This document shows positions 33,672 to 54,746 of a stretch of DNA of 64,000 nt, one piece after another. How positions within the stretch are numbered: position 1 is the stretch's first letter; each line of letters opens with the position of its first letter. Position numbers and translations under genes: made by a program. A model generated the notes under the pieces. That model saw only the letters and a list, made by a program, of their open reading frames with translations. It did no database searches and was not told the DNA's origin. The stretch comes from Candidatus Acetothermia bacterium (GTDB lineage Bacteria; Bipolaricaulota; Bipolaricaulia; RBG-16-55-9; JANLFV01): contig JANLFV010000004.1 in the NCBI GenBank assembly GCA_024653345.1, positions 1 to 64,000 on the forward strand, in the 5' to 3' direction.

Positions 33672-33906
33672 CACCCAGGTGCCGCTCAGCGCCCTCCCCG
33701 CCGGCGAGGTGGGGCTGGTCCGGGCCCTGACCGGCGGGCGGGGGCTTGTGGCCCGGCTGGCCGCGCTGGGCTTCATCCCGGGGACGGAGGTGATGATGCT
33801 CCAGAACTTCGGGAGGGGGCCGCTGCTCGTCGCCGTGCGGAACACCCGTGTGGCCCTGGGGCGGGGCGAGGCGGCCCGTATCTGGGTGAGCCGGAAGAGG
33901 GGCTAA
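33661..33906 (+). CDS. feoA: FeoA-domain protein
   Basis: 81 residues with an SH3-like FeoA fold: PLSALPAGEVGLVRALTGG, LAALGFIPGTEVMMLQN, GPLLVAVRNTRVALGRGEA. FeoA is a cytoplasmic helper of the ferrous iron transporter FeoB. The ATG at 33661 lies inside the end of the fur gene (11-base overlap), giving tight coupling, and feoB follows four bases after its stop. Confidence 0.9.
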   Translation: MIRDTQVPLSALPAGEVGLVRALTGGRGLVARLAALGFIPGTEVMMLQNFGRGPLLVAVRNTRVALGRGEAARIWVSRKRG

Positions 33907-33910
33907 GGCC

Positions 33911-35932
33911 ATGGTCGAGCGGGTCTCCCAGGCTCAGCGGACGATCACTGTGGCCCTGGCGGGCCAGCCGAATGTGGGCAAGTCCACGGTCTTCAACCTC
34001 TTGACCGGCCTCTCCCAGCATGTGGGGAACTGGCCGGGGAAGACGGTGGAGCGGAAGACCGGGATCCATCAGCATAACGGCACGATAATGCGCATCGTCG
34101 ACCTCCCCGGGACCTACAGCCTGACCGCCAACTCCCTGGAGGAGCGGATCGCCCGGGACTACATCATCAAGGAGCGGCCCGATGTGGTGGTGGCCGTCGC
34201 TGACGCCACGGCCCTGGAGCGGAACCTCTACCTGGTGGCGGAGCTGCTCTCCCTCCCCGTGCCGGTGATAGTAGCGCTGAACATGATCGATGTGGCCGAG
34301 CAGCAGGGGCTCCATATCGAGCCGCATGTCCTCGAGGCCGCGCTCGGCCTGCCGGTGGTCCCGATGGTGGCCACCAAGGGGCGTGGTCTGACCGAGCTAG
34401 TCGAGGCCATCGCCCGGCTGGCCCAGGGCGAGGTAGCCTATGCCCCGAGCCGGCCCCGGATCCGGGAGGACCACCGGGCGGTCCTGGAGGAGCTCGAGCG
34501 GCTCATCGCCGATGCCGTGCCCGAGCCATACCCCAACGATTGGGTCGCACTGAAGCTCCTGGAGGGGGACGAGGAGCTCACCCGGATGATCCGGGAGCAG
34601 CTAGCGCCGGAGCGGTGGGAGGAGGTCCATTCGATCCTGAGGCGCCATGAGGACGCCGTGCTGGCCGTGGCCGGCGGGCGCTACGAGTGGATCGGGCGGA
34701 TGGTCCGGGCCGCGGTCACCCGCCCGAGGGCCGGCCAGATCAGCCTCACCGAGCGGCTCGACCGGGTCGCGGCCCACCCGGTCTGGGGCCTCGGGCTCCT
34801 CTTGGGTGTTCTGGGGCTGGTCTTCTTTCTGACTTACGCCATCGGCTCGCCACTCCAGGGCCTGCTCGAGGCCCATCTCGTCCGGGCCGGGGCCGACTGG
34901 GCCGCCCGCCTCCTCGCTGGCGCTCCGGCTTGGCTTGTCGGGTTGGTCGCCAACGGCCTCATCGGCGGGGTCGGGAGGGTCCTCACCTTCCTCCCGATCC
35001 TGCTCGTCTTCTTCGCCGCCTTCGGCTTCCTCGAGGACCTGGGGTATATGGCCCGGGCCGCCTATGTCATGGACCGGTTCATGCACCGGATGGGGCTGCA
35101 CGGGAAGAGCTTCCTGCCGCTCTTCTTGGGCTTCGGCTGCAATGTCCCGGCGGTGATGGGCGCGCGAGTGGTCGAGGGCGAGCGGGCCCGGCTCCTCACG
35201 ATCCTGGTGGCTCCACTAGTGCCCTGCACCGCCCGCATGGCCGTCCTGGCCTTCCTCGTGCCGATCTTCTTCGGGAGGGCCTCCACCTTGGTCTCCTGGG
35301 GGCTGGTGGCGTTCAACCTGCTCATCCTCGTGCTCTTGGGGATCGGGCTCAACAAGCTGGTCTTCCGCGGCGAGCGGGCGGCCTTCATCATGGAGCTGCC
35401 GCTGTATCACATCCCCAACCTCCGGACGATCGGGCTCTTCGTCTGGCGGCGGACAGCGGCCTTCATCCGGCGGGCGGGGACGATCATCCTGGCCGTCTCC
35501 GTCTTGATCGCGGCCCTGGCGGCCCTCCCGAGCGGCGAGCTCGGCTCGAGCTACTTGGCAGCCATAGGCCGCTTCTTGGCCCCCCTGGGAGCTTTGATGG
35601 GCCTGGGCTGGGAGATGATGGTGGCCCTGCTCACCAGCTTCGTGGCCAAGGAGACCGCGATCGCCACCCTCGGGGTGCTCTATGGCGCCGGCGCCGGCGG
35701 GGAGGCGGGGCTGGCCGGGATCTTGGGCAGCCTCTTGGCCCCGTCCGCAGCATTGGCGTTCCTCGTGGTGGAGATGCTCTTCATCCCCTGCGCGGCCACG
35801 GTCGCGACCATCCGCCAGGAGACGGGCTCGTGGAGGTGGACCCTCTTGGATGTGGCCCTTCTACTCGTCCTCTCCTTGGCCATGGGCCTACTCGTCTATC
35901 AGGGGGCGAGGCTGCTCGGATGGGGGACCTGA
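33911..35932 (+). CDS. feoB: ferrous iron transporter FeoB
   Basis: 673 residues. N-terminal GTPase: G1 GQPNVGKST near residue 18, G2 region GNWPGKTVERKTG, G3 DLPGTYSL, G4 NMID. Then a helical regulatory domain and a membrane domain of about eight to ten helices with the FeoB gate repeats (LPLFLGFGCNVPAVMGARV, later AKETAIATLGVLYGAGAGG). It imports Fe(II) under reducing conditions. Its TGA overlaps the next start (TGATG). Confidence 0.96.
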   Translation: MVERVSQAQRTITVALAGQPNVGKSTVFNLLTGLSQHVGNWPGKTVERKTGIHQHNGTIMRIVDLPGTYSLTANSLEERIARDYIIKERPDVVVAVADATALERNLYLVAELLSLPVPVIVALNMIDVAEQQGLHIEPHVLEAALGLPVVPMVATKGRGLTELVEAIARLAQGEVAYAPSRPRIREDHRAVLEELERLIADAVPEPYPNDWVALKLLEGDEELTRMIREQLAPERWEEVHSILRRHEDAVLAVAGGRYEWIGRMVRAAVTRPRAGQISLTERLDRVAAHPVWGLGLLLGVLGLVFFLTYAIGSPLQGLLEAHLVRAGADWAARLLAGAPAWLVGLVANGLIGGVGRVLTFLPILLVFFAAFGFLEDLGYMARAAYVMDRFMHRMGLHGKSFLPLFLGFGCNVPAVMGARVVEGERARLLTILVAPLVPCTARMAVLAFLVPIFFGRASTLVSWGLVAFNLLILVLLGIGLNKLVFRGERAAFIMELPLYHIPNLRTIGLFVWRRTAAFIRRAGTIILAVSVLIAALAALPSGELGSSYLAAIGRFLAPLGALMGLGWEMMVALLTSFVAKETAIATLGVLYGAGAGGEAGLAGILGSLLAPSAALAFLVVEMLFIPCAATVATIRQETGSWRWTLLDVALLLVLSLAMGLLVYQGARLLGWGT

Positions 35933-36222
35933 TGCTGGGGAGACTCCTGGAAAGCCTGCGCCGCGGTGGGACGGAGAGCCTCTCCGGCCTAGCGAGAGAA
36001 CTGGGCGTAAGCGAGGCATTGCTGGAGCGGATGCTGGAAGACTTGGCTCGCAGAGGTTACTTAACGCAGCTGAACAACGGTTGTCCAGGCCAGTGTGCTC
36101 GCTGCGCGGCAGCCTCGCTCTGCAGCAGTGGCAGGCCGACGCGTGCCTGGGCTCTGACAGGGAAGGGTTCCGGGATGATCGCCGGTCGCACTTGTTGGAA
36201 GGCAGGGCGGATCGTGACCTAG
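35932..36222 (+). CDS. FeoC-like winged-helix protein with cysteine cluster
   Basis: About 96 residues. The N-terminal helix-turn-helix (LLESLRRGGTESLSGLARE, LLERMLEDLARRGYL) is followed by CPGQCARCAAASLC (C-x3-C-x2-C-x5-C), the pattern proposed to hold an iron-sulfur cluster in FeoC. It is coupled to feoB through a TGATG junction. FeoC protects or senses iron/redox state for FeoB. The last 40 residues are low in similarity and the true end may be less conserved. Confidence 0.75.
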   Translation: MLGRLLESLRRGGTESLSGLARELGVSEALLERMLEDLARRGYLTQLNNGCPGQCARCAAASLCSSGRPTRAWALTGKGSGMIAGRTCWKAGRIVT

Positions 36223-37875: not shown

Positions 37876-37881
37876 GCCTTA

Positions 37882-39777: not shown

Positions 39778-39779
39778 AG

Positions 39780-43320: not shown

Positions 43321-43396
43321 CCTTGGAATTCGGGCCGCCTCTCCGGGTATCATCGATCCAATGTCGAACCGCCGGGAAAGGAGTGAGGTGAGGGAG

Positions 43397-46210
43397 ATGG
43401 AGCTCCATCTGAAAGTTAATGGCGAGGCGAAGGTCTTCCAGGCCGGCCCCCGTGACCGCTTGGCCGATCTCCTCCGCCGGGAGGGCTACTTCGGGGTCAA
43501 GCTCGGCTGCCGGACTGGCGACTGCGGGAGCTGCACCGTCCTTGTGGACGGGAAGCCGCTCAAGTCCTGCATGGTCCCCGCGGCCAAGGCCGAGGGGAAG
43601 GAGATCACCACCATCGAGGGCTTAGCTCAGGATGGCAAGCTCCACCCCCTGCAGGAGCAGTTCCTGGCCCACGGGGCAGTCCAGTGCGGCTTCTGCACCC
43701 CGGGGATGATCCTAGCTGCCAAGGCCCTCTTGGACGAGAACCCCGACCCGGACGAAGCGGCGGTGAGGAAGGCCCTCAAGGGCGTCCTCTGCCGCTGCAC
43801 CGGCTACGAGAAGCCGGTCCGGGCGGTCCTGGCCGCGGCCAAGGTCATGCGCGGCGAGCCTATTGCTAACCCCACGGTCGCGGTCGAGGAGGCGAGGAAG
43901 TTCAGGGTCGTCGGGAGGAGCGTCCCCAGGGTCGACGGCCTCCAGCTCGTCACAGGAAGGCCGGCGTTCACCGACGACTTCCGCTTGCCGGGGATGCTCT
44001 ACGCCAAGATCCTCTGGAGCCCTCACGCCCATGCCCGGATAAGAAGGATCGACAAGAGCAAGGCCGAGGCCCTCCCGGGTGTCCGCGCGGTCCTGACCTA
44101 CAAGGATGTCCCCAGGGTGGCCTATACCCGCGCGGGGCAGGACTACCCCGAGCCCTCGCCCTACGACTACTTCATCTTGGACAAGAAGGTCCGCTATGTC
44201 GGGGACCGGGTCGCGGCCGTGGCCGCCGACTCGCTGGAGATCGCGGAGGAGGCCCTCAAGCTGATCGAGGTCGAGTATGAGCCCCTCCCGGCGGTCTTCT
44301 CCCCCGAGGAGGCCCTCGCCCCAGGCGCGCCGGTGATCCACGACGAGCCCGAGGCCCGGGGGATCTACGACCCGAAGCGGAACATCTGCGCCCATGTCGA
44401 TGTCCAACTCGGGGATGTCAAGCGGGGCTTCGAGGAGGCCGACCTCGTCCTGGAGAACGAGTATCGGACCCACCGGGTCCAGCACGCCCAGCTCGAGCCG
44501 CACATCACGATCACCTACCTCGACGAGCATGACCGGCTGGTGGTCCGGACGAGCAACCAGGTCCCGTTCCACATCCGGCGGCAGCTCTCCCAGGTCCTCG
44601 GCCTCCCGGTCGGAAGGATTCGGGTCATCAAGCCCCGGATCGGCGGGGGCTTCGGCGGGAAGCAGGAGATGGTCCTGGAAGATATCTGCGCCGCCTTGAC
44701 GCTCGCCACCCGGAGGCCGGTCCGGCTCGAGCTCACGAGGGAGGAGGACTTCCGGAGCGCCAGGACCCGCCACCCGATGATCATCCGGATGAAGAGCGGG
44801 GTGAAGCGGGACGGGACGCTCGTGGCGAACGAGATGGTGGCCCTCGTGGATGCCGGGGCCTACGGGTCTCACAGCCCGACCGTCCCCAGCAACACCGGGA
44901 ACAAGAACCTCCCCCGCTATCGCTGCCCGAACATCCGCTACGCCTTCACCGCGGCCTATACGAACCTCCCGATCAGCGGGGCCATGCGGGGGTATGGGAC
45001 CCCTCAGGGGGCCTTCGCGCTCGAGTGCCAGATCGACGAGCTGGCCTACTCTCTCGGGATGGACCCCCTCGATTTCCGGCTGAAGAACATCGTCCGCGCG
45101 GGGGATGTCGACCGCCTCTCGCCCTTGGTCTATGAGATCAAGTCCGAGGCGGCGAACGACTGGGTCATCCAAGGGAATGGGCTGGAGCAGTGCATCCTCA
45201 AGGGGGCTGAGCTGATCCGCTGGAAGGAGCGCCGGCGGGAATTTGAGGAATGGAATAAGAAAAACCCGCGGCTCAAGAGGGGATTGGGGATGGCCTGCCT
45301 CTCCCAGGGGAGCGGGGTGGCCGGGATCGACAAGGCCGCGGCCACGATCAAGCTGAATGAGGACGGCTCGTTCAACCTCTTCGTCGGGGCCACGGACCTC
45401 GGGACCGGAGCCGACACCGTCCTGGCCCAGATCGCGGCGGAGGTGCTGGGAGTGGATGTGGAGGCCATCATCGTCTACGGCGGGGACACCGACTTCTGCC
45501 CCTTCGACTCCGGGGCCTATGCCTCGAGCACCACCTATGTCTCCGGCGGGGCGGTGAAGAAGGCCGCGGAACTGGTGAAGGACCAGCTCCTCGAGGTGGC
45601 GGGGAGGATGCTCGGCGAAGAGCCGGAGAGCCTCCGCCTCGAGGCCAAGAAGATCATCTCGGACTCGGGGAAGGAAGTCCCCCTGTCTGAGGTCGCCATC
45701 CAAGCCTTCTACAGGGAGAAGTTCCAGGTCGAGGCCACGGCCTCAAACTGCTCGCCCGCCAGCCCGCCGCCGTTCGCGGCCCAGTTCGCCGAGATCGAGG
45801 TCGATACCGAGACGGGTAAGATGGAGGTCAACAGATTCCTCTCCGTGGTCGATTGCGGGACGGCGATCAACCCTGCCCTGGCCGAGGGCCAAGTTGAGGG
45901 GGCGGTCGCCCAGGGCCTGGGCTATGCCCTCTTCGAGGAGATGGCGTTCGATGGCGAAGGGAGGTTGCTGAACCCGAGTTACCGCCATTACCCCATCTTG
46001 AGGGCCGACCAGATGCCCCGCCTGGAGACGGTCCTGGTCCAGACCTTCGAGCCGAGCGGTCCCTACGGCGCGAAGGCCGTTGGCGAGATCGCCATCAATG
46101 GCCCTGCGCCGGCAATTGCGAATGCAGTCTATCATGCTCTAGGGGTCAGGATCAGAAGCCTCCCCATCACCCCGGCAAAGGTCCTCAAGGCGCTGGGGAG
46201 AGCTCCGTAG
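43397..46210 (+). CDS. molybdenum hydroxylase, fused 2Fe-2S and Moco domains (Mop/XdhA-like)
   Basis: 937 residues. Plant-type 2Fe-2S domain with cysteines 38, 43, 46 and 58, helical 2Fe-2S domain with cysteines 97, 100, 132 and 134, then the molybdopterin domain with GGGFGGKQE near 416 and the base-catalyst glutamate in GPYGAKAVGEIA (Glu897). There is no FAD domain, so the layout matches the Desulfovibrio aldehyde oxidoreductase Mop rather than full xanthine dehydrogenase. Its location after a purine importer suggests oxidation of hypoxanthine or xanthine, but aldehydes remain possible. An upstream ATG (43361), eight bases after a TATCAT, is an alternative start. Confidence 0.88.
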   Translation: MELHLKVNGEAKVFQAGPRDRLADLLRREGYFGVKLGCRTGDCGSCTVLVDGKPLKSCMVPAAKAEGKEITTIEGLAQDGKLHPLQEQFLAHGAVQCGFCTPGMILAAKALLDENPDPDEAAVRKALKGVLCRCTGYEKPVRAVLAAAKVMRGEPIANPTVAVEEARKFRVVGRSVPRVDGLQLVTGRPAFTDDFRLPGMLYAKILWSPHAHARIRRIDKSKAEALPGVRAVLTYKDVPRVAYTRAGQDYPEPSPYDYFILDKKVRYVGDRVAAVAADSLEIAEEALKLIEVEYEPLPAVFSPEEALAPGAPVIHDEPEARGIYDPKRNICAHVDVQLGDVKRGFEEADLVLENEYRTHRVQHAQLEPHITITYLDEHDRLVVRTSNQVPFHIRRQLSQVLGLPVGRIRVIKPRIGGGFGGKQEMVLEDICAALTLATRRPVRLELTREEDFRSARTRHPMIIRMKSGVKRDGTLVANEMVALVDAGAYGSHSPTVPSNTGNKNLPRYRCPNIRYAFTAAYTNLPISGAMRGYGTPQGAFALECQIDELAYSLGMDPLDFRLKNIVRAGDVDRLSPLVYEIKSEAANDWVIQGNGLEQCILKGAELIRWKERRREFEEWNKKNPRLKRGLGMACLSQGSGVAGIDKAAATIKLNEDGSFNLFVGATDLGTGADTVLAQIAAEVLGVDVEAIIVYGGDTDFCPFDSGAYASSTTYVSGGAVKKAAELVKDQLLEVAGRMLGEEPESLRLEAKKIISDSGKEVPLSEVAIQAFYREKFQVEATASNCSPASPPPFAAQFAEIEVDTETGKMEVNRFLSVVDCGTAINPALAEGQVEGAVAQGLGYALFEEMAFDGEGRLLNPSYRHYPILRADQMPRLETVLVQTFEPSGPYGAKAVGEIAINGPAPAIANAVYHALGVRIRSLPITPAKVLKALGRAP

Positions 46211-46278: not shown

Positions 46279-46307
46279 TTGAGGGGGAGCCCCGGCCTCC
46301 CTATAAT
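46279..46307 (+). promoter_or_regulatory. promoter of the metal-cluster island
   Basis: TTGAGG (46279-46284), 17-base spacer, perfect TATAAT (46302-46307). It drives the DUF134 gene and probably the whole downstream run. Confidence 0.7.
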
Positions 46308-46319
46308 GTGCATATGCAC
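46308..46319. promoter_or_regulatory. 12-base perfect palindrome operator
   Basis: GTGCATATGCAC starts on the base after the -10 box and spans the expected transcription start. It is a natural repressor site; the DUF134 protein encoded 17 bases downstream is the obvious candidate binder. Confidence 0.6.
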
Positions 46320-46335
46320 GGAATGGAGGAGGGCG

Positions 46336-46761
46336 ATGCCACGGCGGAGGAAGTGGCGCCGGTGCGCCTTCCGGCCGCGGGCCAGGTGGTTCTACCCCGC
46401 CCCAACGCCGGGGAGCGCCCTCGTGCAGCCGCCGGTCGAGCTCGGCTCCGACGAGCTGGAGGCGATGCGCTTGGTTGACCTGCTCGGGAAGGAGCAGAGC
46501 GCGGCCGGGGAGGAGATGGGCATCTCCCGCGGGACGGTCCAGCGCTTGCTCTATTCAGGCCGGGCGAAGGTGGCCCAGGCCCTCCTCGAGGGCCGGCCGC
46601 TCCGGCTCAAGGGCAACGAAGCCTTGCTGCGCTGCGCGGTCTGTGGCTTCGAGCTGTCCGCGCCGCTCTCATCAGGTAGCGTGAGCTACCTGCGCTGCTG
46701 CCGCTGTGGCAGCCCGAATCTCTACCGTGTCGAGCAGATAGAGAAAGAGGAGGTGAGCTAG
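46336..46761 (+). CDS. DUF134 family predicted DNA-binding protein
   Basis: 141 residues. The central part has a sigma-like helix-turn-helix (LDELEAMRLVDLLGKEQSAA region, then ISRGTVQRLLYSGRAKVAQ), the DUF134 core. An N-terminal basic Arg/Phe stretch and a C-terminal zinc-ribbon-like part with CAVCG and CCRCGS follow. DUF134 genes often sit with NifX-like genes, as here, and are presumed regulators. The start at 46336 has GGAGGAGGGCG and opens PRRRKWRRCAF, a typical N-terminus. It probably controls its own operon through the palindrome at 46308-46319. Confidence 0.85.
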   Translation: MPRRRKWRRCAFRPRARWFYPAPTPGSALVQPPVELGSDELEAMRLVDLLGKEQSAAGEEMGISRGTVQRLLYSGRAKVAQALLEGRPLRLKGNEALLRCAVCGFELSAPLSSGSVSYLRCCRCGSPNLYRVEQIEKEEVS

Positions 46762-47094
46762 ATGCCAGGAGGCTACCGTTGGATGTATCAGTTGACCGGC
46801 TTGCCGGGCTGGATGCGGTTCGGCTACTCGCCGGGGTGGGGCGGCTTGCCCCCGGGGGCCCAGTTCCTGATGGAGTCGGGGCTGTGGCCCCAGTTCCAGA
46901 GCTGGATGCAGAGCCGGATGCCCTATCCAGCTTGGCCGATGGTCTCGCCCTTCATGGCCTATCCTCAAGCTCCGGGGATGCCCGCTAGTCAGGAGGTCGA
47001 GCTGCTGAAGGGCCAGGCGCAGGTGCTGGAGCAGCAACTGGAGGCGATCCGGAAGCGGATCGAGGAGCTGAGCGGGAAGGAGAAAAGCAGATGA
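46762..47094 (+). CDS. DUF5320-like small protein with coiled-coil tail
   Basis: 110 residues starting directly after the DUF134 stop. The N-terminal 75 residues are rich in Gly, Pro, Met, Trp and Tyr (MPGGYRWMYQLTGLPGWM, MQSRMPYPAWPM). The C-terminus is a coiled coil (ELLKGQAQVLEQQLEAIRKR). This matches DUF5320 proteins found next to NifX-like genes, with unknown function. The tail is nearly the same as that of the next protein, suggesting the two pair up. Confidence 0.75.
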   Translation: MPGGYRWMYQLTGLPGWMRFGYSPGWGGLPPGAQFLMESGLWPQFQSWMQSRMPYPAWPMVSPFMAYPQAPGMPASQEVELLKGQAQVLEQQLEAIRKRIEELSGKEKSR

Positions 47095-47678
47095 AGATCG
47101 TGGTCGCGACGACTAAGGGCGGCCTCGACGACCAGGTCGCGCCAACCTTCGGCCGGACGCCGACCTTCACGGTGGTCGAGGTCGAGGGTGGCAAGATCGG
47201 CAAGGCCGAGGTGGTCCCCAACCAGTTCGCCGGGGCCCCCGGCGGGGCCGGAATTCAGGCCGCGCAGTGGGCGGCCAATGCCGGGGCGAAGGCGGTCATC
47301 GCTGGAAACTACGGCCCGAACGCCTCGGGCGTCTTGGGCCAGGCGGGGATCGAGCTGCTCACCGTCTCCGGGCTCACGGTCCGCGAGGCGGTCGAGCGCT
47401 ACCTCAAGGGCGAGCTCGCCCCTTTTAGTGTCGGGGCGATGGCCACCCCCGGCTGTGGCATGGGGCGCGGTATGGGCCGCGGCGGGGGCATGGGTATGGG
47501 CCGCGGGATGTGGGGCCAGGGAATGATGCCCCCACCTCAAGCCCCCATCCCGCCCGCTGGGGGAACGCCACCCATGTCCAAGGAGCAGGAACTGAGGATG
47601 TTGAGAGATCAGGCCGAGATGCTCGAGCAGCAACTGAAGCAGATCAAGAAGAGGCTCGAGGAGCTAGGAGGAGAGTGA
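47091..47678 (+). CDS. NifX-like domain fused to Gly/Met linker and coiled coil
   Basis: 195 residues. Residues 1-115 form a dinitrogenase FeMo-cofactor-binding (NifX/NifB C-terminal/VnfY) domain: IVVATTKGGLDDQVAPTFGR, FTVVEVEGG, AVIAGNYGPNASGVL. A Gly/Met/Arg-rich linker with one Cys follows (PGCGMGRGMGRGGGMGMGR), then a DUF5320-type coiled coil (LRDQAEMLEQQLKQIKKRLE). Such domains carry metal-sulfur clusters. No nitrogenase genes are present, so the cargo is probably another Mo/Fe/Cu cluster. It overlaps its neighbours by four and one bases. Confidence 0.88.
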   Translation: MKIVVATTKGGLDDQVAPTFGRTPTFTVVEVEGGKIGKAEVVPNQFAGAPGGAGIQAAQWAANAGAKAVIAGNYGPNASGVLGQAGIELLTVSGLTVREAVERYLKGELAPFSVGAMATPGCGMGRGMGRGGGMGMGRGMWGQGMMPPPQAPIPPAGGTPPMSKEQELRMLRDQAEMLEQQLKQIKKRLEELGGE

Positions 47679-48151
47679 TGGGCACGAAGGCAAGGGAGAT
47701 CGTCGAGCTGGATGTTGAGAAGCTGATCGCCGAGCTGAACAGGGCCTACGCCGATGAGTGGCTTGCGTTCTACCAATACTGGATCAGTGCTAGGGTGGCT
47801 CAGGGCCGGGAGAGCAAGGTGGTCGTTGAGGAGCTGAAGCGCGTCGCTCTGGAAGAGCTGGAGCACGCCGAGGAGCTGGCTGACCGGATCATCCAACTGG
47901 GCGGCCGGCCATTGACCAACCCCAAGGAGTGGCTCACCAAGGCTAACTGCGCCTACAAGGAGCCGCCCAACGACCCCAAGGATGTCGCTCGAATCATCAA
48001 GGACGCCATCGAGGCCGAGCGGTGTGCCATCTCCGTCTACAACAAGCTGGCGGAGACAACTCATAGCAAGGACCATGCCACCTATCATCTGGCGCGGCAC
48101 ATCCTGGACGAGGAACTGGCGCACGAGGATGCCTTTGAGAACATGCTCTGA
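47678..48151 (+). CDS. DPS-like (DPSL/thioferritin-type) di-iron ferritin
   Basis: 157-residue four-helix protein. Di-iron ligands fall at Glu27, Glu60 with His63 (ExxH), Glu112 or Glu114, and Glu146 with His149 (ExxH), a bacterioferritin-like site. Cys91 and Cys116 are 25 apart, the same spacing I recall for the Cys pair of archaeal DPSL proteins that form 12-subunit cages against peroxide. It would store iron and detoxify peroxide. The start at 47678 couples by TGATG to the NifX-fusion gene, tying iron storage to the cluster genes. Confidence 0.8.
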   Translation: MGTKAREIVELDVEKLIAELNRAYADEWLAFYQYWISARVAQGRESKVVVEELKRVALEELEHAEELADRIIQLGGRPLTNPKEWLTKANCAYKEPPNDPKDVARIIKDAIEAERCAISVYNKLAETTHSKDHATYHLARHILDEELAHEDAFENML

Positions 48152-48170
48152 AGAAGAGGAGGTGATCTAG

Positions 48171-48419
48171 ATGCCCAGAGGCTTTGGCCGCGGTATAGGG
48201 TATGGGATGGGCGCTGGGATGGGCTACTATGGTCGGCCCGGCGGCCGGGGGAACCCTTACCCATTCTGTCGCTTCTTCCCCTGGCTCCCTCGTGGCTGGT
48301 GGCGCACCGGAATGTATGGACCGATGACGCGCTATTCCTATCAGTCTTACGGCGCTTCCCCTCAGTATTCGCCCTATGGGCCTTACTCGACTGCCTACGC
48401 GCCGCCTTATTACTACTGA
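48171..48419 (+). CDS. small Gly/Tyr/Pro-rich protein
   Basis: 82 residues, low complexity: MPRGFGRGIGYGMGAGMGYY, a middle FCRFFPWLPRGWWRTGMYG, and a Tyr/Pro/Ser tail ending APPYYY. The opening MPRG and Gly-Met pattern resembles DUF5320 N-termini, without the coiled coil. GAGGTGAT lies upstream of the ATG. The role is unknown; it sits between the DPS-like and second NifX genes and is probably part of the same assembly. Confidence 0.65.
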   Translation: MPRGFGRGIGYGMGAGMGYYGRPGGRGNPYPFCRFFPWLPRGWWRTGMYGPMTRYSYQSYGASPQYSPYGPYSTAYAPPYYY

Positions 48420-48420
48420 G

Positions 48421-48798
48421 ATGAGGGTCTGTATACCAACTGAGGGGAGCGGCGGGCTGGACGATCGAGTGGGCGAGCACTTCGGCCGCGTCCCGACCTA
48501 CACCATCGTAGACACGGAGACCGGCGCGGTCGAGGTCCTCCCCAACGAGAGCGAGCACATGGGCGGCACGGGGCTGCCCGGGGAGCTGTTGGCCCGGGCG
48601 GGCGTTGACGCTCTCCTCTGCGCCGGGCTGGGCCCCCGGGCGATGGCGTTACTTGAGGAGCACGGCGTGAGGGTCTACATCGGCGCCAATGGTAGCGTGC
48701 GCGATGCTCTCGGGGCTTGGAAGAGAGGAGAGCTCCAAGCCGCTACGGATGAGGACATCTGCCGCGAGCACAAGTTCGGTGAGCACCATCACCACTGA
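48421..48798 (+). CDS. NifX-like cluster-binding protein with His tail
   Basis: 125 residues, a single NifX/NifB-C-terminal domain: VCIPTEGSGGLDDRVGEHFG, YTIVDTETGAVEVLP, ALLCAGLGPRAMALLEEHG, VRDALGAWKRGEL. It ends CREHKFGEHHHH, a natural histidine tail with an added Cys that could bind metal. The start is one base after the previous stop. Related stand-alone proteins include ORP-like (orange protein) and YbaX-type cluster carriers. Confidence 0.88.
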   Translation: MRVCIPTEGSGGLDDRVGEHFGRVPTYTIVDTETGAVEVLPNESEHMGGTGLPGELLARAGVDALLCAGLGPRAMALLEEHGVRVYIGANGSVRDALGAWKRGELQAATDEDICREHKFGEHHHH

Positions 48799-48819
48799 GC
48801 TGGGAAAGAGGCACGCGCG

Positions 48820-49677
48820 TTGCAGATCGTGGTGACCGCCGGCAAGGGCGGGACGGGGAAGACGACCGTGGCGACCTCGCTCGCCCTCGCCCTCCAGGAG
48901 CGATACCCTGTTCAGTTCCTCGACTGCGATGTCGAGGAGCCCGACGCCCATATCCTGCTCAAGCCCCAAATCAAGGAGCGCGAGCCGGTCTATGTCAACC
49001 GGCCGAAGATCGACGAAGCCAAGTGCGATTACTGCGGGAAGTGCAGTGAGGCTTGCCAGTTCAACGCCATCATGGTCATCAAGGACAAACTGGTCCTCGT
49101 CTATGACGAGCTCTGCCACGGCTGCGGGCTCTGCCATCTGGTCTGCCCCAAAACCGCCATCTCTGAATACGAGGTGGAGATGGGCCTCATCGAGCGCGGC
49201 ACCGCTGGCGGCATGGAGTATCTCCAGGGGACCCTCACCGTCGGGGAGCCGCTCGCCACCCCGATCATCCGCCGGTTGAAGGAGAAGATAGACCAAAAGA
49301 AGGTCGCGATCCTCGACTCCGCCCCGGGGACCGGCTGCCCGGTGATCGAGACGATGCACGGGGCCGACTTCGTCCTCTTGGTGACCGAGCCGACCCCGTT
49401 CGGCCTCCACGACTTGAGGCTGACGGTCGATGTGGCCCGGACGCTGGGGCTGCGGATGGGTGTCGTGCTCAACCGCGACGGGGTCGGGGATCGCGGGGTA
49501 GAAGAATACTGCGAGAAGGAGGGGCTCCCGATCCTGCTCCGCATCCCGCTGGACCGGCGGATCGCCGTGGCTTACTCGAACGGTGTCCCGCTCGTCCTGG
49601 AGCTGCCGGAGTGGCGAGAGCGCTTCCGGGAGATGTTCGCCGCGCTCGCGGAGCTGGCCGAACCGGAGCGAAGATGA
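48820..49677 (+). CDS. MinD-superfamily ATPase with inserted 2[4Fe-4S] ferredoxin (first copy)
   Basis: 285 residues. Deviant Walker A GKGGTGKTTVATSLALAL at the N-terminus, an inserted bacterial ferredoxin domain with CDYCGKCSEACQFNAI and CHGCGLCHLVCPKTAI (residues about 69-110), then DSAPGTGCPVIE. These ATPases are relatives of the Mrp/NBP35 scaffolds and accompany ORP and NifX genes. The start is a TTG at 48820 with AAAGAGG before it, opening directly on QIVVTAGKGG. The next ATPase gene begins two bases after its stop. Confidence 0.9.
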   Translation: MQIVVTAGKGGTGKTTVATSLALALQERYPVQFLDCDVEEPDAHILLKPQIKEREPVYVNRPKIDEAKCDYCGKCSEACQFNAIMVIKDKLVLVYDELCHGCGLCHLVCPKTAISEYEVEMGLIERGTAGGMEYLQGTLTVGEPLATPIIRRLKEKIDQKKVAILDSAPGTGCPVIETMHGADFVLLVTEPTPFGLHDLRLTVDVARTLGLRMGVVLNRDGVGDRGVEEYCEKEGLPILLRIPLDRRIAVAYSNGVPLVLELPEWRERFREMFAALAELAEPERR

Positions 49678-49678
49678 A

Positions 49679-50596
49679 ATGAAGCAACTGGTCGTGATCA
49701 GCGGTAAGGGCGGGACGGGGAAGACGACGCTCGTGGCCGCCTTCGCCGCCCTGGCGCAGAGCAAGGTCCTGGCCGACTGCGATGTCGATGCCGCCGACCT
49801 CCATCTGCTGCTGGACCCCAAGGTCGAGAGGTCCGAGGCGTTCGAGGGCTCGAAGGTGGCGATCCTCGACCAAGAGAAGTGCATCCAATGCGGGGCCTGC
49901 CTTGCGAGCTGCCGCTTCGGGGCCATCTCCGAGAGCGGCGGGCTCTTCGCGATCGACCCCTTCCGCTGCGAGGGCTGCGGGGTCTGCGCCTTCGTCTGCC
50001 CCGCGGGGGCGATCAAGCTTGAGCCACGCCTCTCGGGCCGCATCTACATCTCCTCCACCAGGTTCGGGCCGCTGGTCCACGGCCAGCTCGAGCCGGGGGA
50101 GGGGACCTCAGGGAAGCTCGTCTCCTTAGTGAAACAGCGGGCGATGGAGCTGGCCCAGCTTGAGGGGAGGGACTTGATCATCGTCGACGGCGCCCCGGGG
50201 ATCGGCTGCCCGGTGATCGCCTCCCTCGGCAACGCGACCGCAGCCCTGATCGTCACCGAGCCGACCCTCTCCGGGATCCACGATATGGAGAGAGTCCTCG
50301 GCGTGGCTCGCCACTTCCGGACAAGGGCATTCATCTGCATCAACAAGTGCGATCTGAACCGAGAGATGGCGCGACGGATCGAGGAATTCGCCGCCGAGCG
50401 GGGGCTCGAGGTGGTAGGCCAAATCCCCTACGACGATGCCGTGACCGAGGCCCTGGTCCAAGGGAAGACGGTCGTCGAGCATGCCTCCGACTCACCGGTA
50501 GTCCAGGAGATCGAGCTGATGTGGTCTAGACTAGCAGAGGTCCTGGAGCTCGGGGAGGCGACGCGAACCGGCCCCTCCCACCGAGGCCGGGGCTGA
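49679..50596 (+). CDS. MinD-superfamily ATPase with inserted ferredoxin (second copy)
   Basis: 305 residues, paralogue of the preceding gene: deviant Walker A SGKGGTGKTTLVAAFAAL, ferredoxin insertion with CIQCGACLASCRFGAI and CEGCGVCAFVCPAGAI, then DGAPGIGCPVIASLG. Such pairs are assumed to act as a heterodimer in metal-sulfur cluster assembly, in the cytoplasm. It has a longer C-terminus (QEIELMWSRLAEVLELGEA) than the first copy. Confidence 0.9.
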   Translation: MKQLVVISGKGGTGKTTLVAAFAALAQSKVLADCDVDAADLHLLLDPKVERSEAFEGSKVAILDQEKCIQCGACLASCRFGAISESGGLFAIDPFRCEGCGVCAFVCPAGAIKLEPRLSGRIYISSTRFGPLVHGQLEPGEGTSGKLVSLVKQRAMELAQLEGRDLIIVDGAPGIGCPVIASLGNATAALIVTEPTLSGIHDMERVLGVARHFRTRAFICINKCDLNREMARRIEEFAAERGLEVVGQIPYDDAVTEALVQGKTVVEHASDSPVVQEIELMWSRLAEVLELGEATRTGPSHRGRG

Positions 50597-50650
50597 AGGA
50601 GGGTCTCCGGCCGGGGACAGGGAGAGTGGACCGGCGCTTCGGGGGTGACG

Positions 50651-51430
50651 ATGATCATCGAAGAGATTCTCGACTCGGTGAAGCAGGAGTTGGAAGCAAG
50701 GGCTGTTGAGGACATCCGGATCGGGCTCGGCTATACCGCGGTGAAGCTGGACGACGGGAGTTGCGGCCTCGCCGCGACGATGCGGGACGAGATCTCGGCC
50801 TGCTGCACGGTGCTGGAGAAGGCGGGAGCGCTCCGCAACGAGCGAGCCGACTCCTTGGCCGAGCTGGCCCTATCCCCTGACGGCCTGGAAGCAGCGCTGG
50901 GGGTCGCCACGATCAACGCGATCCTAGGCCGCAGGCCCCTGGAAGGGGAGTGCGAGGCGAGCGAGATCGTGCGGGACCTTGGGATTGCGAAGGGTGATGC
51001 GGTCGGGATGATCGGCTACTTCGGGCCGTTGATCGAGCCGATTCGCCGCGCCTGCAGGGAGCTATACATCTTCGAGCGGCGGCTCCCCGCATTCCAAGCT
51101 GTCGTTGGCGAGCGGCCGGCCGAGGCTCCGCGGGTCTATCCCGATTGGGCCGTGGAGCTCTTGCTCCCGAGGTGCGATGCGGTCCTCATCTCCGGCACGA
51201 CCGTGCTGAACAAGACGATCGATCATCTGCTCCGGCTCTGCCGGGGGAGGGTGGCCCTTGTCGGGCCGACGACGCCGCTCTCGGACATCTTTGCCAAATA
51301 CGGGGTCTCGCTCCTCTTCGGCTCGAGAGTGAGGGATCCCGCGCGGGTCTTGAGGGTTGTCTCCGAAGGCGGCGGGACGGCCACCTTCGGCTCGGCGGTC
51401 TCTAAGGTCACGGTGAGGCTTAGGAGGTAA
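50651..51430 (+). CDS. DUF364/DUF4213 putative heavy-metal chelation protein
   Basis: 259 residues: N-terminal DUF4213 (enolase-N-like) part with IRIGLGYTAVKLDDGSCG, then a DUF364 Rossmann-like part with GYFGPLIEPIRRACRELYIF, DAVLISGTTVLNKTIDHLL and VALVGPTTPLSDIFAKYG. A structure in this family suggested heavy-metal chelation, and its genes often lie with Mo/Fe uptake or cofactor genes. The ATG at 50651 is chosen over the GTG six bases earlier. It fits the metal-cluster theme. Confidence 0.82.
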   Translation: MIIEEILDSVKQELEARAVEDIRIGLGYTAVKLDDGSCGLAATMRDEISACCTVLEKAGALRNERADSLAELALSPDGLEAALGVATINAILGRRPLEGECEASEIVRDLGIAKGDAVGMIGYFGPLIEPIRRACRELYIFERRLPAFQAVVGERPAEAPRVYPDWAVELLLPRCDAVLISGTTVLNKTIDHLLRLCRGRVALVGPTTPLSDIFAKYGVSLLFGSRVRDPARVLRVVSEGGGTATFGSAVSKVTVRLRR

Positions 51431-51434
51431 GCAG

Positions 51435-52268
51435 ATGCACAGTCAACAACAGAGGCTCAAGATGGTCGAGGAGCAAGAGCGGAGGATCAAGGATAATTTA
51501 GCGCGGATCAAGCACAAGCTCGTGGTCTTCAGCGGGAAGGGCGGGGTGGGGAAGACGACGGTGGCGGTTAACCTCGCCTATGCCCTGGCGCGGAGCGGGA
51601 AAGAGGTCGGCCTCCTGGACGCGGACCTCACCGGCCCGAATGTCCCGCAGATGGTCGGGCTCCAGGAGCCGCCTGCCGTAGCTGAGGAGGAGATGCTCCC
51701 CCAGGCCGCGAGCTTGCCCAACCTCAAGGTCATCTCCCTGGCCACGATGATCCCCGCGGACGCCCCGGTGATCTGGCGCGGGCCGATGCGCTCGAAGGCC
51801 CTCGAGCAGTTCCTGGGAGATGTGGCCTGGGGCGAGCTGGACTTCCTCGTGGCCGACCTCCCGCCTGGCACCGGCGATGAGGTCATGACCATCGCCCAGC
51901 GGATGGAGCCGGAGCTGGCGATCATCGTCACCACCCCGCAGGAGGTCTCGTTGATCGACGCCCGGCGGGCGATCAACATGGCTAAGAGGATGGGGATCCC
52001 CAAGATCGGGGTGGTGGAGAACATGTCCAGCTTCAGGTGCCCCAACTGCGGCCATGAGCTCGAGCTCTTTGGGAGCGGGGGCGGCGAGCGGGCCGCGCGG
52101 GAGCTTGCGGTCATGTTCCTCGGCAAGATCCCCTTCAATCTCGAGGCCCGCCGGGGGGCCGATCTCGGGCGGCCGATCGTCCTCGAGGACCAGGGGGCGG
52201 ACATCTCCGAAGCTTTCGAGCAGATCGCGCGGGAGATCGTGCGGCTCTTGGATGAAGAATCCTCCTGA
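51435..52268 (+). CDS. Mrp/NBP35 iron-sulfur cluster carrier ATPase
   Basis: 277 residues. An N-terminal helix is followed by deviant Walker A SGKGGVGKTTVAVNLA, LDADLTGPNVPQMVGL, VIWRGPMRSKALEQFLGDV, FLVADLPPGTGDEVMT, and the bridging-cluster CPNCGHEL (CxxC) near residue 202. Mrp proteins carry a [4Fe-4S] cluster on a dimer and deliver it to target enzymes. The start at 51435 has AGGAGG before it. The following radical SAM gene starts within its last codons. Confidence 0.93.
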   Translation: MHSQQQRLKMVEEQERRIKDNLARIKHKLVVFSGKGGVGKTTVAVNLAYALARSGKEVGLLDADLTGPNVPQMVGLQEPPAVAEEEMLPQAASLPNLKVISLATMIPADAPVIWRGPMRSKALEQFLGDVAWGELDFLVADLPPGTGDEVMTIAQRMEPELAIIVTTPQEVSLIDARRAINMAKRMGIPKIGVVENMSSFRCPNCGHELELFGSGGGERAARELAVMFLGKIPFNLEARRGADLGRPIVLEDQGADISEAFEQIAREIVRLLDEESS

Positions 52269-53229
52269 GCAGAGGAGCGCGCGGGCCTTCGGGCCAGTCC
52301 CCTCGCGCTGCCTGGGAAGGAGCCTGGGGATCAACAACATCCCCCCGAAGGTCTGCAGCTATTCCTGCGTCTACTGCCAGTTGGGCCGGACCATTGCTCT
52401 TGAGATCGAGCGCCGCAGCTTCTACCAGCCCGAGGAGATCCAGCAAGATGTCCTGGAAAGGGTCGCGAGGGCGCGAAGGCTGGGAGAGCCCATCGACTAC
52501 CTCACCTTCGTCCCCGACGGGGAGCCGACACTGGACTCCAACTTGGGCCGGGAGATCGAGCTCTTGAGGCCCCTAGGGATCAAGATCGCCGTGATCAGCA
52601 ACGGCTCGCTCGTCTGGCGCGAGGATGTCCGGGAGGAGCTGGGGAAGGCTGACTGGGTCTCGTTGAAGGTCGATGCGGTCAGAGAAGAGCCCTGGCGGAG
52701 GATCAACCGCCCCCATCCGGCCCTGCGCTTGGGCTCGATCCTCGAAGGGATGAGGGCCTTCGCCAGAGCTTACAAGGGGAAACTGGCGACCGAGACGATG
52801 CTCGTCCGTGGGCTCAACGATGGCGAGGAGGACCTCACTGAGGTGGCCGGGTTCCTCGCGGAGCTAGAGCCGTCTCGGGCCTATCTCGCTGTCCCCACCC
52901 GACCCCCGGCAGAGGGGTGGGTCGAGCCTCCCGATGAGGAGAGGATCAATCAGGCCTATCAAGTCCTTCGCGAACAGCTCGAGCATGTGGAGCTTCTCAT
53001 CGGCTATGAGGGCAATGCCTTTGCCTTTACAGGCAATGTCGAGGAAGATCTCTTGAGCATTACGGCCGTCCATCCTCTGAGGGAGGAGGCGGTGAGGGAA
53101 CTCCTGGCCAAGGCTGGGGCAGACTGGCAGGTCGTCCGCAAGCTGATCGACGCGGATCGCTTGGTAGAGCTAGAGTATAGAGGGCGGAAGTTCTACATGA
53201 GGCAGGTCGGCGGAAGGCTCGGCCTGTAG
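52252..53229 (+). CDS. radical SAM protein of the COG0731 type
   Basis: 325 residues. The radical SAM cluster motif is Cys35-x3-Cys39-x2-Cys42 (KVCSYSCVYCQLG), after the family opening FGPVPSRCLGRSLGIN. Also present are FVPDGEPTLDSNLG, a GEPTL-like block contacting SAM, and VISNGSL. COG0731 proteins are related to TYW1 but lack its flavodoxin domain, and their reactions are unknown. It overlaps the mrp gene by 17 bases and is the last gene of the metal-cluster island. Confidence 0.85.
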   Translation: MKNPPEQRSARAFGPVPSRCLGRSLGINNIPPKVCSYSCVYCQLGRTIALEIERRSFYQPEEIQQDVLERVARARRLGEPIDYLTFVPDGEPTLDSNLGREIELLRPLGIKIAVISNGSLVWREDVREELGKADWVSLKVDAVREEPWRRINRPHPALRLGSILEGMRAFARAYKGKLATETMLVRGLNDGEEDLTEVAGFLAELEPSRAYLAVPTRPPAEGWVEPPDEERINQAYQVLREQLEHVELLIGYEGNAFAFTGNVEEDLLSITAVHPLREEAVRELLAKAGADWQVVRKLIDADRLVELEYRGRKFYMRQVGGRLGL

Positions 53230-53315: not shown

Positions 53316-54146
53316 ATGCTGGGAGCGATGGACATCGCGGCCAGGATGGCGGCCATAGCGGTCCTAGCGGCGCTCACCCTGGGCACCACGATGAGGTGCG
53401 TCGAGCAGACGAGTCCTTTGCCGGAGGAGGTGGGGACTGTGACTCTGACGGTGCTCTATGACAACTACGAATCCGACCGGCGGCTCAAGCCAGGCTGGGG
53501 CTTCTCCTGCCTGCTCCAGGGCCTGGAGGAGACCATCCTCTTCGATACTGGAGGTGATAGCGCGATCCTCCTCGGGAACATGCGGGCCCTGGGGATCGAG
53601 CCCTCCCGGATAGACTCGATCTTCCTCTCCCATAGCCATGGTGACCATGTCGGGGGGCTAGCGGGGCTGCTCGAGGAGCACAGTGCCGTTAGGGTCTATC
53701 TCCTGAGGTCTTTCCCCGAGGAGTTCAAGGGGCTGGTCCGCGGCTCCGGGGCGGAGGTAGTAGAGGTTCAAGAACCAATGGAGATCTCTCCCCACGCCTG
53801 GTCGACGGGCGCGCTCGGCACCTCCATCGGCGAGCAGTCGTTGGTTCTCGAGACAGACGTGGGCCTCGTCCTCATCACCGGCTGCGCCCATCCGGGGATT
53901 GTAGAGATCATCAAGAGGGCTAAGCGGCTACTGGGTCGGGATGTCTACCTCGCACTGGGGGGCTTCCACATGCTGGGGATGAGCGCGGTCGAGATCCAGG
54001 AGATCATCGCGCAGCTCAGGGCCGAGGGGGTCAAGAAGGTCGGCCCCTGCCACTGCTCCGGGGACCTCACCCGCAGGCTCTTCCGGGAGGCTTACGGGGA
54101 GGACTACATCGAGGTCGGCGTGGGGTCCGTGATAAGCTTGGAGTAG
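53316..54146 (+). CDS. MBL-fold metallohydrolase, exported or membrane-anchored
   Basis: 276 residues. A hydrophobic N-terminus (MAAIAVLAALTLGTTMRC) could be a signal peptide with the Cys as lipid site. The metallo-beta-lactamase fold is clear: LLQGLEETILFDTGGDS, ligands FLSHSHGDHVGG near residue 109, and LVLITGCAHPGIVEII. It resembles the dihydropteridine/7,8-dihydropterin-6-yl-methyl group (COG1237), whose reactions are mostly unknown. The start at 53316 has AAGGAGG. It follows the radical SAM gene after an 86-base gap and may or may not be on its transcript. Confidence 0.82.
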   Translation: MLGAMDIAARMAAIAVLAALTLGTTMRCVEQTSPLPEEVGTVTLTVLYDNYESDRRLKPGWGFSCLLQGLEETILFDTGGDSAILLGNMRALGIEPSRIDSIFLSHSHGDHVGGLAGLLEEHSAVRVYLLRSFPEEFKGLVRGSGAEVVEVQEPMEISPHAWSTGALGTSIGEQSLVLETDVGLVLITGCAHPGIVEIIKRAKRLLGRDVYLALGGFHMLGMSAVEIQEIIAQLRAEGVKKVGPCHCSGDLTRRLFREAYGEDYIEVGVGSVISLE

Positions 54147-54193: not shown

Positions 54194-54652
54194 TCAATCC
54201 ACCTGGACTTGCGCGGCCGTGATGAGGCGGCCGTCGTGGGTGATCCCGATATTGTAGACCCCGGGGTTAAGCCGGCGGAGCTCGCCGCGGTAGGAGACGG
54301 AGCCGAGGCACTCGATGCAGTAGCCCTCCTGCGCCTTGGAGGTGATCGCGATCTCGTAGGTGTTGACGCACCTCTCCCCCGGGCCGCAACGCATGGTTAT
54401 CAACTCCGCCGTGAGATCATAGCAGGGAGTGGGGGTCGAGACCGCTCCGGAAAAGGTGATCCTCCCCCTGCCGCCCTGGAGCTCGGCCCCTTCCGCTACG
54501 GAGGCGCAGCTCGAGCCGAGCTGCGCGAAGGAGAGGAGCGGCTCCGATGGGCCAGGGTTCCAGAGCGCGTCACAACTCTGGAGGCCAAGGACCGCCCCGA
54601 GGCCGAGAAGCCCGCTCGCCTTCAAGAACTGACGCCGCGTGAGCTTTTCCAT
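54194..54652 (-). CDS. Tat-exported Cys-rich protein of unknown function
   Basis: 152 residues starting with a twin-arginine signal (LTRRQFLKASGLLGLGAVLG) followed by LQSC, which could be a lipobox. The mature part has four or five more cysteines (SSCASV, PCYDLTAELITMRCG, RCVNTYEI, GYCIECLGS), favouring disulfides, and a beta-sandwich feel (GVYNIGITHDGRLI). No family is recognised. Its start is only eight bases downstream of the 3' end of the tRNA-Leu gene on the same strand, so it is probably read from the tRNA transcript. Confidence 0.6.
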   Translation of the reverse strand: MEKLTRRQFLKASGLLGLGAVLGLQSCDALWNPGPSEPLLSFAQLGSSCASVAEGAELQGGRGRITFSGAVSTPTPCYDLTAELITMRCGPGERCVNTYEIAITSKAQEGYCIECLGSVSYRGELRRLNPGVYNIGITHDGRLITAAQVQVD

Positions 54653-54659
54653 CCTCATC

Positions 54660-54746
54660 TGGTGCCGGGGGAGGGATTTGAACCCACACGAGCTTTCGCC
54701 CACTAGCTCCTGAAGCTAGCGCGTCTTCCGGTTCCGCCACCCCGGC
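54660..54746 (-). tRNA. tRNA-Leu (anticodon CAG)
   Basis: On the minus strand the acceptor arms GCCGGGG and CCCCGGC pair fully, the anticodon stem CTAGC/GCTAG closes the loop TTCAGGA (anticodon CAG), and a long variable arm (GGGC GAAA GCTC) marks a class II leucine tRNA. The T loop is TTCAAAT with one T-T mismatch in its stem. CCA is encoded at 54660-54662. Confidence 0.95.

Follow-up and report, generated by a model that had tools for sequence, protein, structure and literature searches.

A bacterial operon with a putative role in iron-sulfide storage and iron-sulfur cluster delivery shares an operator site with archaeal issA

An operon from the anaerobic host Candidatus Acetothermia/Bipolaricaulota probably serves, under the control of a single repressor, to store iron sulfide and to deliver iron-sulfur clusters. 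Storage of iron and sulfide bound to protein, with their release as iron-sulfur clusters, is its most likely role, because the 12-base site in front of the operon also fronts archaeal issA. The product of that gene, IssA, stores thioferrate; sulfide induces it in an iron-dependent manner, and in vitro it is an Fe-S donor for ferredoxin (PMC5524996). The best explanation of the sequence data is a predicted system related to both IssA and ORP/MrpORP and controlled by DUF134. The preliminary description of the window (the whole 64,000-nucleotide stretch analysed) had proposed a novel Fe/Mo/Cu-S cofactor. Such a cofactor is not needed, as storage and trafficking of iron sulfide fit the locus.

Operon organization

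Eleven open reading frames, all on the plus strand, form a single co-directional operon (Table 1), and family profile matches bear out the families to which they had been assigned. The tight coupling described earlier is confirmed as well, with intergenic gaps of -17 to +21 nt, except for the 54 nt before the DUF364 gene. The true start of the operon is at 46336, where DUF134 begins with an ATG codon; the TTG at 46279 falls within the promoter. The MBL-fold gene is probably the twelfth gene of the operon.

The promoter matches the consensus at 10/12 positions. About one such match is expected by chance in the scanned region, and the call is supported by the conserved operator that adjoins it. 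This operator has a single exact copy in the genome. Its core, GCATATGC, is found upstream of DUF134 in relatives, and DUF134 is a putative autoregulator of the operon.

Table 1. Features of the operon and its surroundings
Feature	Position	Strand	Details
feoA-like, feoB, feoC-like	33672..36222	+	feoB 33911-35932, feoC-like 35932-36222; FeoA/FeoC named by position and sequence
Sigma-70-like promoter	46279..46307	+	TTGAGG-17 nt-TATAAT; -35 box TTGAGG 46279-46284, -10 box TATAAT 46302-46307
Operator palindrome	46308..46319	.	GTGCATATGCAC, directly behind the -10 box
DUF134 HTH protein	46336..46761	+	PF02001, 1.9e-19
SPGW protein	46762..47094	+	N-terminal TGLPGWMRFGYSPGWGG motif, C-terminal DUF5320 coiled-coil-like module (DUF5320, 2.1e-6)
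NifX1	47091..47678	+	NifX domain (PF02579, 5.9e-21), Gly/Met/Arg-rich linker, DUF5320 module
DPS-like ferritin	47678..48151	+	Ferritin, 1.3e-26
Gly/Tyr microprotein	48171..48419	+	82 aa, core GNPYPFCRFFPWLPRGWW
NifX2	48421..48798	+	NifX domain (5.6e-22), His-rich C terminus
MinD1	48820..49677	+	CbiA/ParA P-loop ATPase, inserted 2x[4Fe-4S] ferredoxin, invariant Cys173
MinD2	49679..50596	+	MinD1 paralogue, CbiA/ParA with 2x[4Fe-4S], invariant Cys177
DUF4213/DUF364 protein	50651..51430	+	7.7e-37, putative chelator enzyme
Mrp/NBP35-type Fe-S carrier ATPase	51435..52268	+	Mrp/ParA, 2.5e-93, CxxC
Radical SAM protein	52252..53229	+	Radical SAM, 7.9e-17, CxxxCxxC; COG0731 in the preliminary description
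MBL-fold hydrolase	53316..54146	+	86 nt downstream of the radical SAM gene; found again in related loci

Encoded proteins

The DUF134 protein scores 70.5 bits, above the curated cut-off of 27 for PF02001, and carries a C-terminal CxxC...CCxxC region that is present in a minority of its homologues. Literature searches on DUF134, COG1342, and the palindrome returned no regulator paper and no function for the DUF134 family. The C-terminal DUF5320 module of the SPGW protein is also found on NifX1 itself (2e-13), whose Gly/Met/Arg-rich tail has a pI of 9.5, two aromatic residues, and one Cys. The closest solved relative of the ferritin is the DPS-like ferritin 2vzb (1.7e-32), which shares both cysteines in the alignment.

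The Gly/Tyr microprotein has no family match in Pfam or NCBIfam. It is strongly basic (pI 9.8), with no acidic residues, a single Cys, 22/82 aromatic residues, and 17/82 Gly. Its motif, GNPYPFCRxFPWLPRxWW, is cross-domain and unannotated, and comparison with the sister species gives a dN/dS of 0.25. The cluster-ligand cysteines of the MinD and Mrp proteins are all conserved. Mrp combines a deviant Walker A with a CxxC motif, and its K35, K40, C202, and C205 are conserved. Against the MrpORP model it scores 316 bits, under the cut-off of 450, and covers model positions 1 to 254 of 365; the search with this model detected no NifX-Mrp fusion at the locus.

Conservation and genomic neighbors

The core conserved within the phylum consists of DUF134, the SPGW/DUF5320 protein, NifX1, the Gly/Tyr microprotein, NifX2, MinD1, MinD2, and Mrp. 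It is found again in ANME archaea, Bathyarchaeota, Chloroflexi, and other anaerobes, and the microprotein family is common to ANME archaea and several bacterial phyla. Random mixing of these genes in relatives, looked for as a possible refutation, was not found. The arrangement is far beyond chance, since a MinD gene lies directly 3' of NifX2 in 35/37 phylum loci. The earlier suggestion of one system, plausibly carrying and buffering metal-sulfur material, is supported. The proposed membership of DUF364 and the radical SAM protein is upheld too, as both recur alongside the core, as does the MBL-fold protein; DUF364 is linked to NifX in 16 of its 24 strong phylum matches.

Other parts of the preliminary description did not stand. 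The ferritin, said to be directly linked to the set, lies near NifX in 1/37 phylum ferritin matches, that of this genome only, and the sister species has no ferritin at this position; it is therefore rejected as a core component. The molybdenum hydroxylase (XDH) encoded upstream, suggested as the client, sits in a purine-type block that is absent from the junction in the sister species and is likewise rejected. In the sister species, feoB-feoC lies directly upstream of the island. The linked or co-regulated genes, namely, feoB, issA, Mrp, and a cation exporter, suggest chiefly iron and sulfide; nothing found at this locus hints at Mo or Cu, both named earlier. The stated lack of nitrogenase was borne out: neither the genome itself (92% complete) nor the sister species has a match to PF00148 (NifDK/NifEN-type proteins), and a role in nitrogenase cofactor maturation (Nif) is rejected.

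An operator shared with Thermococcales issA

In Thermococcales, the same 12-mer, GTGCATATGCAC, is found directly behind the BRE/TATA of issA. Of 20 issA genes, 19 have an exact copy at a distance of 32 to 49 bp before the start; in the remaining gene the start is mis-called. Shuffled controls contained no exact copy. Exact sites are present in 66 of the 74 genomes of the Thermococcales phylum (reversed control, 0). Those examined precede issA and genes for NifX2-type, MinD, Mrp, and cation-exporter proteins; by sequence, these sites mark the gene set of the bacterial operon as a scattered regulon. A few distant operator sites in Thermococcales adjoin Mo/W-related genes.

DUF134 is encoded in 73/74 genomes of this phylum, so that its co-occurrence with the operator is uninformative as to the regulator. 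Also conserved in front of issA is another element, TTAGG...CCGAAA, to which the iron response may be due. No regulator of the iron-dependent sulfide response of issA is named in the literature searched.

In the NifX tree, NifX1 falls in with MTH1175, ORP, and the MGRG-NifX of Thermococcales, and Thermococcales IssA forms a separate branch (the basal fork has values of 90/92 and is not starred). A direct orthology of NifX1 and IssA is thus unsupported by the tree, and the thioferrate-storage reading is borrowed from a co-regulated neighbor rather than from an orthologue. The MGRG-type NifX encoded next to issA in Thermococcales is the best scorer against the NifX1 model. The best solved relative of NifX1 is MTH1175 (1eo1; 2e-22), which has been called IssA-type (PMC5524996), and ORP (2wfb) is matched at 7.6e-13.

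Proposed mechanism and alternatives

In the proposed mechanism, DUF134 would bind GTGCATATGCAC, the observed site behind the promoter, and repress the operon when iron and sulfide are scarce. An abundance of both would lead to joint production of NifX1, the SPGW protein, and the microprotein, which is cationic and aromatic and has a single Cys. The DUF5320 modules, which match between NifX1 and the SPGW protein, might join the two; the segments of Gly, Arg, and aromatic residues might wrap an anionic Fe-S polymer, e.g., thioferrate, as proposed for the IssA tail. NifX2 would act as a small carrier of Fe-S pieces, which the MinD-ferredoxin pair would reduce or move in an ATP-dependent manner via the 2x[4Fe-4S] insert and the extra invariant Cys, and Mrp would hand finished clusters to apo-proteins. 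DUF364, the radical SAM protein, and the MBL-fold protein would be recurrent accessories. The DPS-like ferritin, added in this species, is probably an oxide-type iron buffer or an oxygen guard.

An ORP-like assembly of a heterometal sulfide cofactor (Mo/Cu or W) for one particular enzyme, carried by NifX and inserted by MinD/Mrp, is unlikely, even though Orp3/4, Orp8, and Orp9 have their counterparts in the MinD pair, NifX, and Mrp, respectively (PMC6345978), and NifX1 is related to ORP. Some exact Thermococcales sites adjoin MoaC/cation exporter, FmdE, and molybdate/tungstate-type binding protein genes, which leaves room for Mo/W, and DUF364 has been tied to rare-metal transport genes (PMC2954201). 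However, NifX1 is nearer to MTH1175 than to ORP, there is neither a NifX-Mrp fusion nor a conserved molybdoenzyme partner, and the adjoining XDH belongs to a purine block in whose place the sister species has feoB-feoC.

Somewhat less probable still is general Fe-S biogenesis without a storage body, with NifX proteins as scaffolds, MinD proteins as reductases, and Mrp as the carrier. The conserved SPGW protein, the Gly/Met/Arg linkers, and the microprotein, cationic and aromatic, look more like a mineral-binding matrix than like a cysteine scaffold, and the operator held in common with issA points to storage, whereas the conserved MinD and Mrp ligand cysteines and the in vitro transfer of Fe-S clusters by the Mrp domain of MrpORP (PMC6345978) would fit biogenesis. 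Detoxification of sulfide/iron or heavy metals, by precipitation of excess metal sulfide that is not a usable store, is very improbable: the presence of Mrp and MinD genes in the operon speaks for re-use, and IssA donates Fe-S in vitro (PMC5524996). Detoxification could explain why some Thermococcales operator sites lie next to an arsenite-type transporter and a cation exporter, and sipA has been proposed to serve iron sulfide detoxification (PMC6981617).

Much is still to be learned about the way in which anaerobes hold iron and sulfide in reserve and feed them back into Fe-S cluster assembly, and IssA is the sole characterised iron-sulfide store of anaerobes found in the literature searched. 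A single 12-bp site now connects issA with the operon of a bacterium and a dispersed regulon of archaea, which provides a candidate operator and, in DUF134, a candidate regulator for issA. The microprotein represents a new, unannotated cross-domain family. Tentatively, and with slightly less than even confidence, the iron-sulfide store favored here may be a so-far-undescribed cross-domain system of anaerobes, in which NifX1, SPGW, and the single-Cys microprotein, as separate proteins, build a mineral-binding matrix on which Mrp and the MinD-ferredoxin ATPases act, with DUF134 exerting control via the conserved palindrome by which Thermococcales issA would be controlled as well.

Comparison with known systems

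The likeness to ORP operons pointed out earlier holds, as the MinD-ferredoxin pair and a NifX-domain protein are present. Specifically, the operon shares paired MinD-ferredoxin ATPases, a NifX-domain protein, and an Mrp ATPase with the ORP complex/MrpORP of Desulfovibrio (PMC6345978). In contrast to MrpORP, its Mrp is not fused to NifX, and whereas ORP is encoded in two divergent sigma-54 operons, here a single co-directional operon has a sigma-70-like site and DUF134 as its first gene. The SPGW protein, the microprotein, DUF364, the radical SAM protein, and the MBL-fold protein are additions relative to ORP, and Mo/Cu evidence is absent. MTH1175, unlike NifX1, has a short tail and lacks the DUF5320 module.

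With IssA (SipA, PF2025) of Pyrococcus furiosus (PMC5524996), the operon shares the NifX domain, cationic Gly-rich segments, and a 12-bp operator that is identical in sequence and in its place in the promoter, and in Thermococcales MinD, NifX, and Mrp genes stand behind the identical site. The Thermococcales genes are scattered, whereas here they form one operon. The NifX1 tail, rich in Gly/Met/Arg, has few aromatics, unlike that of IssA; the aromatic/Arg/Gly/Cys tail is here a separate microprotein, which resembles the description of the IssA tail in its positive charge, its many Gly and aromatic residues, and its single Cys.

Organization of the island

The eleven genes of the island, encoding DUF134, the SPGW protein (C-terminal DUF5320 module), NifX1, ferritin, an 82-residue Gly/Tyr microprotein, NifX2, MinD1, MinD2, DUF364, Mrp, and a radical SAM protein, are all present, as claimed in the preliminary description, and co-directional, and each family name is confirmed by Pfam. 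The successive junctions measure 0, -4, -1, 19, 1, 21, 1, 54, 4, and -17 nt. The start previously assigned to the island proves to be the -35 box, with DUF134 beginning farther downstream. The operator palindrome occurs once in the 1.71-Mb genome (whole-genome scan). The listed start of the small ORF beyond the operon is doubtful because a tRNA gene overlaps its 5' end.

Features of the island and its surroundings in the window
Feature	Position	Strand	Remarks
feoA-feoB-feoC	33.7-36.2 kb
Purine-type block	36658-46210		BMP-type lipoprotein, amidohydrolase, nucleoside-type ABC transporter, XDH-type hydroxylase
-35 box	46279
Operator GTGCATATGCAC	46308-46319		perfect palindrome, directly 3' of -10 box TATAAT
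DUF134 start codon (ATG)	46336
Small ORF	54194-54703	opposite
tRNA-Leu (CAG)	54660-54746	-	downstream of the operon

In the sister species (Candidatus Acetothermia bacterium RSWS19), feoB, 84% identical to that of the window, and a feoC-like gene lie directly 5' of the operator. In the window, the purine-type block sits between feoABC and the island; the sister species lacks it at the equivalent junction. The molybdenum hydroxylase, named in the preliminary description as a possible client of the island, thus belongs to the purine block and lies outside the island. The hydroxylase was assigned by Pfam and NCBIfam, and the purine reading of the BMP, amidohydrolase, and ABC transporter genes by sequence inspection; we read the amidohydrolase as adenine deaminase-like.

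Phyletic distribution

DUF134 is found in 55 and a NifX2 relative in 54 of 100 genomes of Bipolaricaulota, the phylum of the host; the sister species NifX2 is 85% identical to that of the window. Gene order rebuilt around NifX2 or DUF134 places a MinD gene directly after NifX2 in 35 of the 37 loci with a strong NifX2. Within 9 kb, these loci contain Mrp (at least 23), DUF364 (at least 13), radical SAM (at least 8), and MBL-fold (at least 5) genes, all lower bounds because contig ends interrupt many loci, and ferritin in none of the 37 as far as these contigs extend. In whole-genome coordinates, 16 of 24 strong DUF364 matches lie within 8 kb of NifX, as does 1 of 37 ferritin matches, that of the window itself. 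The NifX1 and microprotein genes adjoin each other in the sister species. Ferritin, listed with the system in the preliminary description, is therefore not a core part but an addition between these two genes in the lineage of the window. Two more ferritin-family genes, about 2.3 kb apart, are found elsewhere in the same genome (contig C27, 47265-50447).

Searching 84,980 species genomes with the SPGW/DUF5320 alignment gave 210 relatives, of which 80 were retrieved. The 69 loci counted outside Bipolaricaulota include NifX (65), MinD (38), DUF134 (37), Mrp (34), radical SAM (17), MBL (7), and DUF364 (3), and none has ferritin. Because SPGW alone picked these loci, the linkages of the other genes are independent evidence that they work together. 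The hosts, mostly from lineages known to be anaerobic, include ANME-1, ANME-2, Syntrophoarchaeum, Bathyarchaeota, Thermoplasmatales, Chloroflexi, Planctomycetes, Armatimonadetes, Omnitrophota, and others.

Operator and DUF134

The exact GTGCATATGCAC is found in 66 of 74 genomes of the Thermococcales phylum, at 1 to 4 sites each; the reversed control pattern has no site in the same 74. The sites examined include ones 5' of issA, of MinD1, of Mrp, and of a NifX2-type gene that often diverges from FmdE; these four are the window's own gene set. Further sites precede a cation-efflux transporter (once divergent from MoaC), a molybdate/tungstate-type solute-binding protein, and an arsenite-type transporter, the last named by sequence inspection (FmdE, MoaC/exporter, binding-protein, and arsenite-type cases in loci L289, L294, L295, L304, L306, and L317, position 1501). 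In Bipolaricaulota, the variant TATRWGCATATGCWC, with one mismatch allowed, has 62 sites, of which 36, from 34 genomes, lie at the DUF134/NifX island; 51 genomes have a strong DUF134 match. At most two mismatches to the 12-mer are found in 17 of 68 DUF134 upstream regions (a few species counted twice) versus about 1% of shuffles. Archaeal SPGW loci, including those of the ANME type, have a longer palindrome, TGAATATATATTCA, in a similar place 5' of DUF134. Its pattern GTGAATATATATTCAC is matched within 3 mismatches in 24 of 36 archaeal DUF134 upstream regions versus 0.2% of shuffles, a partly circular comparison, as the pattern was derived from these loci.

As the product of the first gene behind its own operator, DUF134 is the likely palindrome-binding protein; its presence in 73 of the 74 genomes of the Thermococcales phylum neither proves nor disproves this role. 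Many DUF134 proteins carry Gly/Arg-rich tails (GRGRGRR, GRGMGRGRW) like those of NifX; DUF134 might be a sensor of the anionic Fe-S polymer that the NifX tails would wrap.

Protein features

The eight ferredoxin cysteines of MinD1 and MinD2 are all retained in more than 70 sequences, as is an additional invariant Cys (C173 and C177, respectively) in an S/G-A-P-G-x-G-C-P-V motif. As a lead from NifH-like ATPases, this additional Cys would correspond to the position at which NifH holds its bridging cluster. Mrp retains its CxxC motif and the radical SAM protein its CxxxCxxC motif. NifX1 and the SPGW protein end in the same DUF5320 module, which suggests that the two pair.

The microprotein has no family match in Pfam or NCBIfam, the sole NCBIfam match (E 0.84) being noise. 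In the SPGW loci, 50 proteins share the core N-P-Y/F-x-F/Y-C-R-x-F/Y-P-W-L/M-P-R-x-W; most of them have a single Cys and lack acidic residues, and their median pI is 10.3. Relative to the sister species, the microprotein gene of the window has a dN/dS of 0.25.

Comparison with IssA

In Pyrococcus furiosus, IssA is a store of iron and sulfide in the form of thioferrate, and sulfide induces it provided that iron is sufficient (PMC5524996). Twenty NifX loci were taken from genomes of the Thermococcales phylum, and issA-type genes were assigned by a Pro-rich, WGRG-rich tail with one Cys, fitting the published description (PMC5524996). In 19 of the 20, a second NifX gene, mostly with an MGRG-repeat tail, lies beside issA or a few kilobases away; it scores 134 to 177 bits with the NifX1 model versus 84 to 118 bits for IssA. 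Many of these loci contain radical SAM, MinD1/MinD2, DUF364, MBL, and DUF134 genes within the same 13 to 20 kb.

In 19 of the 20 issA genes, the exact GTGCATATGCAC lies 32 to 49 bp 5' of the start codon; none of about 2,000 shuffles gave an exact match. The start of the twentieth gene is miscalled, and the upstream peptide FCAYAHN reads through the site. A second conserved element, TTAGG...CCGAAA, about 20 bp 5' of the palindrome and overlapping the BRE, could be a separate iron-responsive site.

The preliminary description proposed one system that builds, carries, and buffers a novel Fe/Mo/Cu-S cofactor. The single system stands; as far as sequence can tell, its substance would be iron sulfide rather than a Mo/Cu cofactor. 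The island would serve in iron-sulfide storage, with the labor probably divided among its proteins. Identity of NifX1 with IssA itself is not supported by the NifX tree (120 columns, 113 rows, many forks open), in which NifX1 groups with the Thermococcales MGRG-NifX, MTH1175, and ORP, and NifX2 with TM1816 and the Thermococcales NifX2, while IssA occupies a separate branch. The island is accordingly proposed to work with and like IssA, not to be IssA. In composition, the microprotein (22 aromatic, 17 Gly, 12 Pro, and 8 Arg/Lys among 82 residues) resembles the published description of the 70-residue IssA tail, with 14 aromatic, 15 Gly, 11 Pro, and 7 cationic residues and one Cys (PMC5524996). 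The issA promoters align in the order BRE, TATA box, palindrome; the palindrome just behind the core promoter, a position that suits a repressor, matches the order of -10 box and palindrome in the window.
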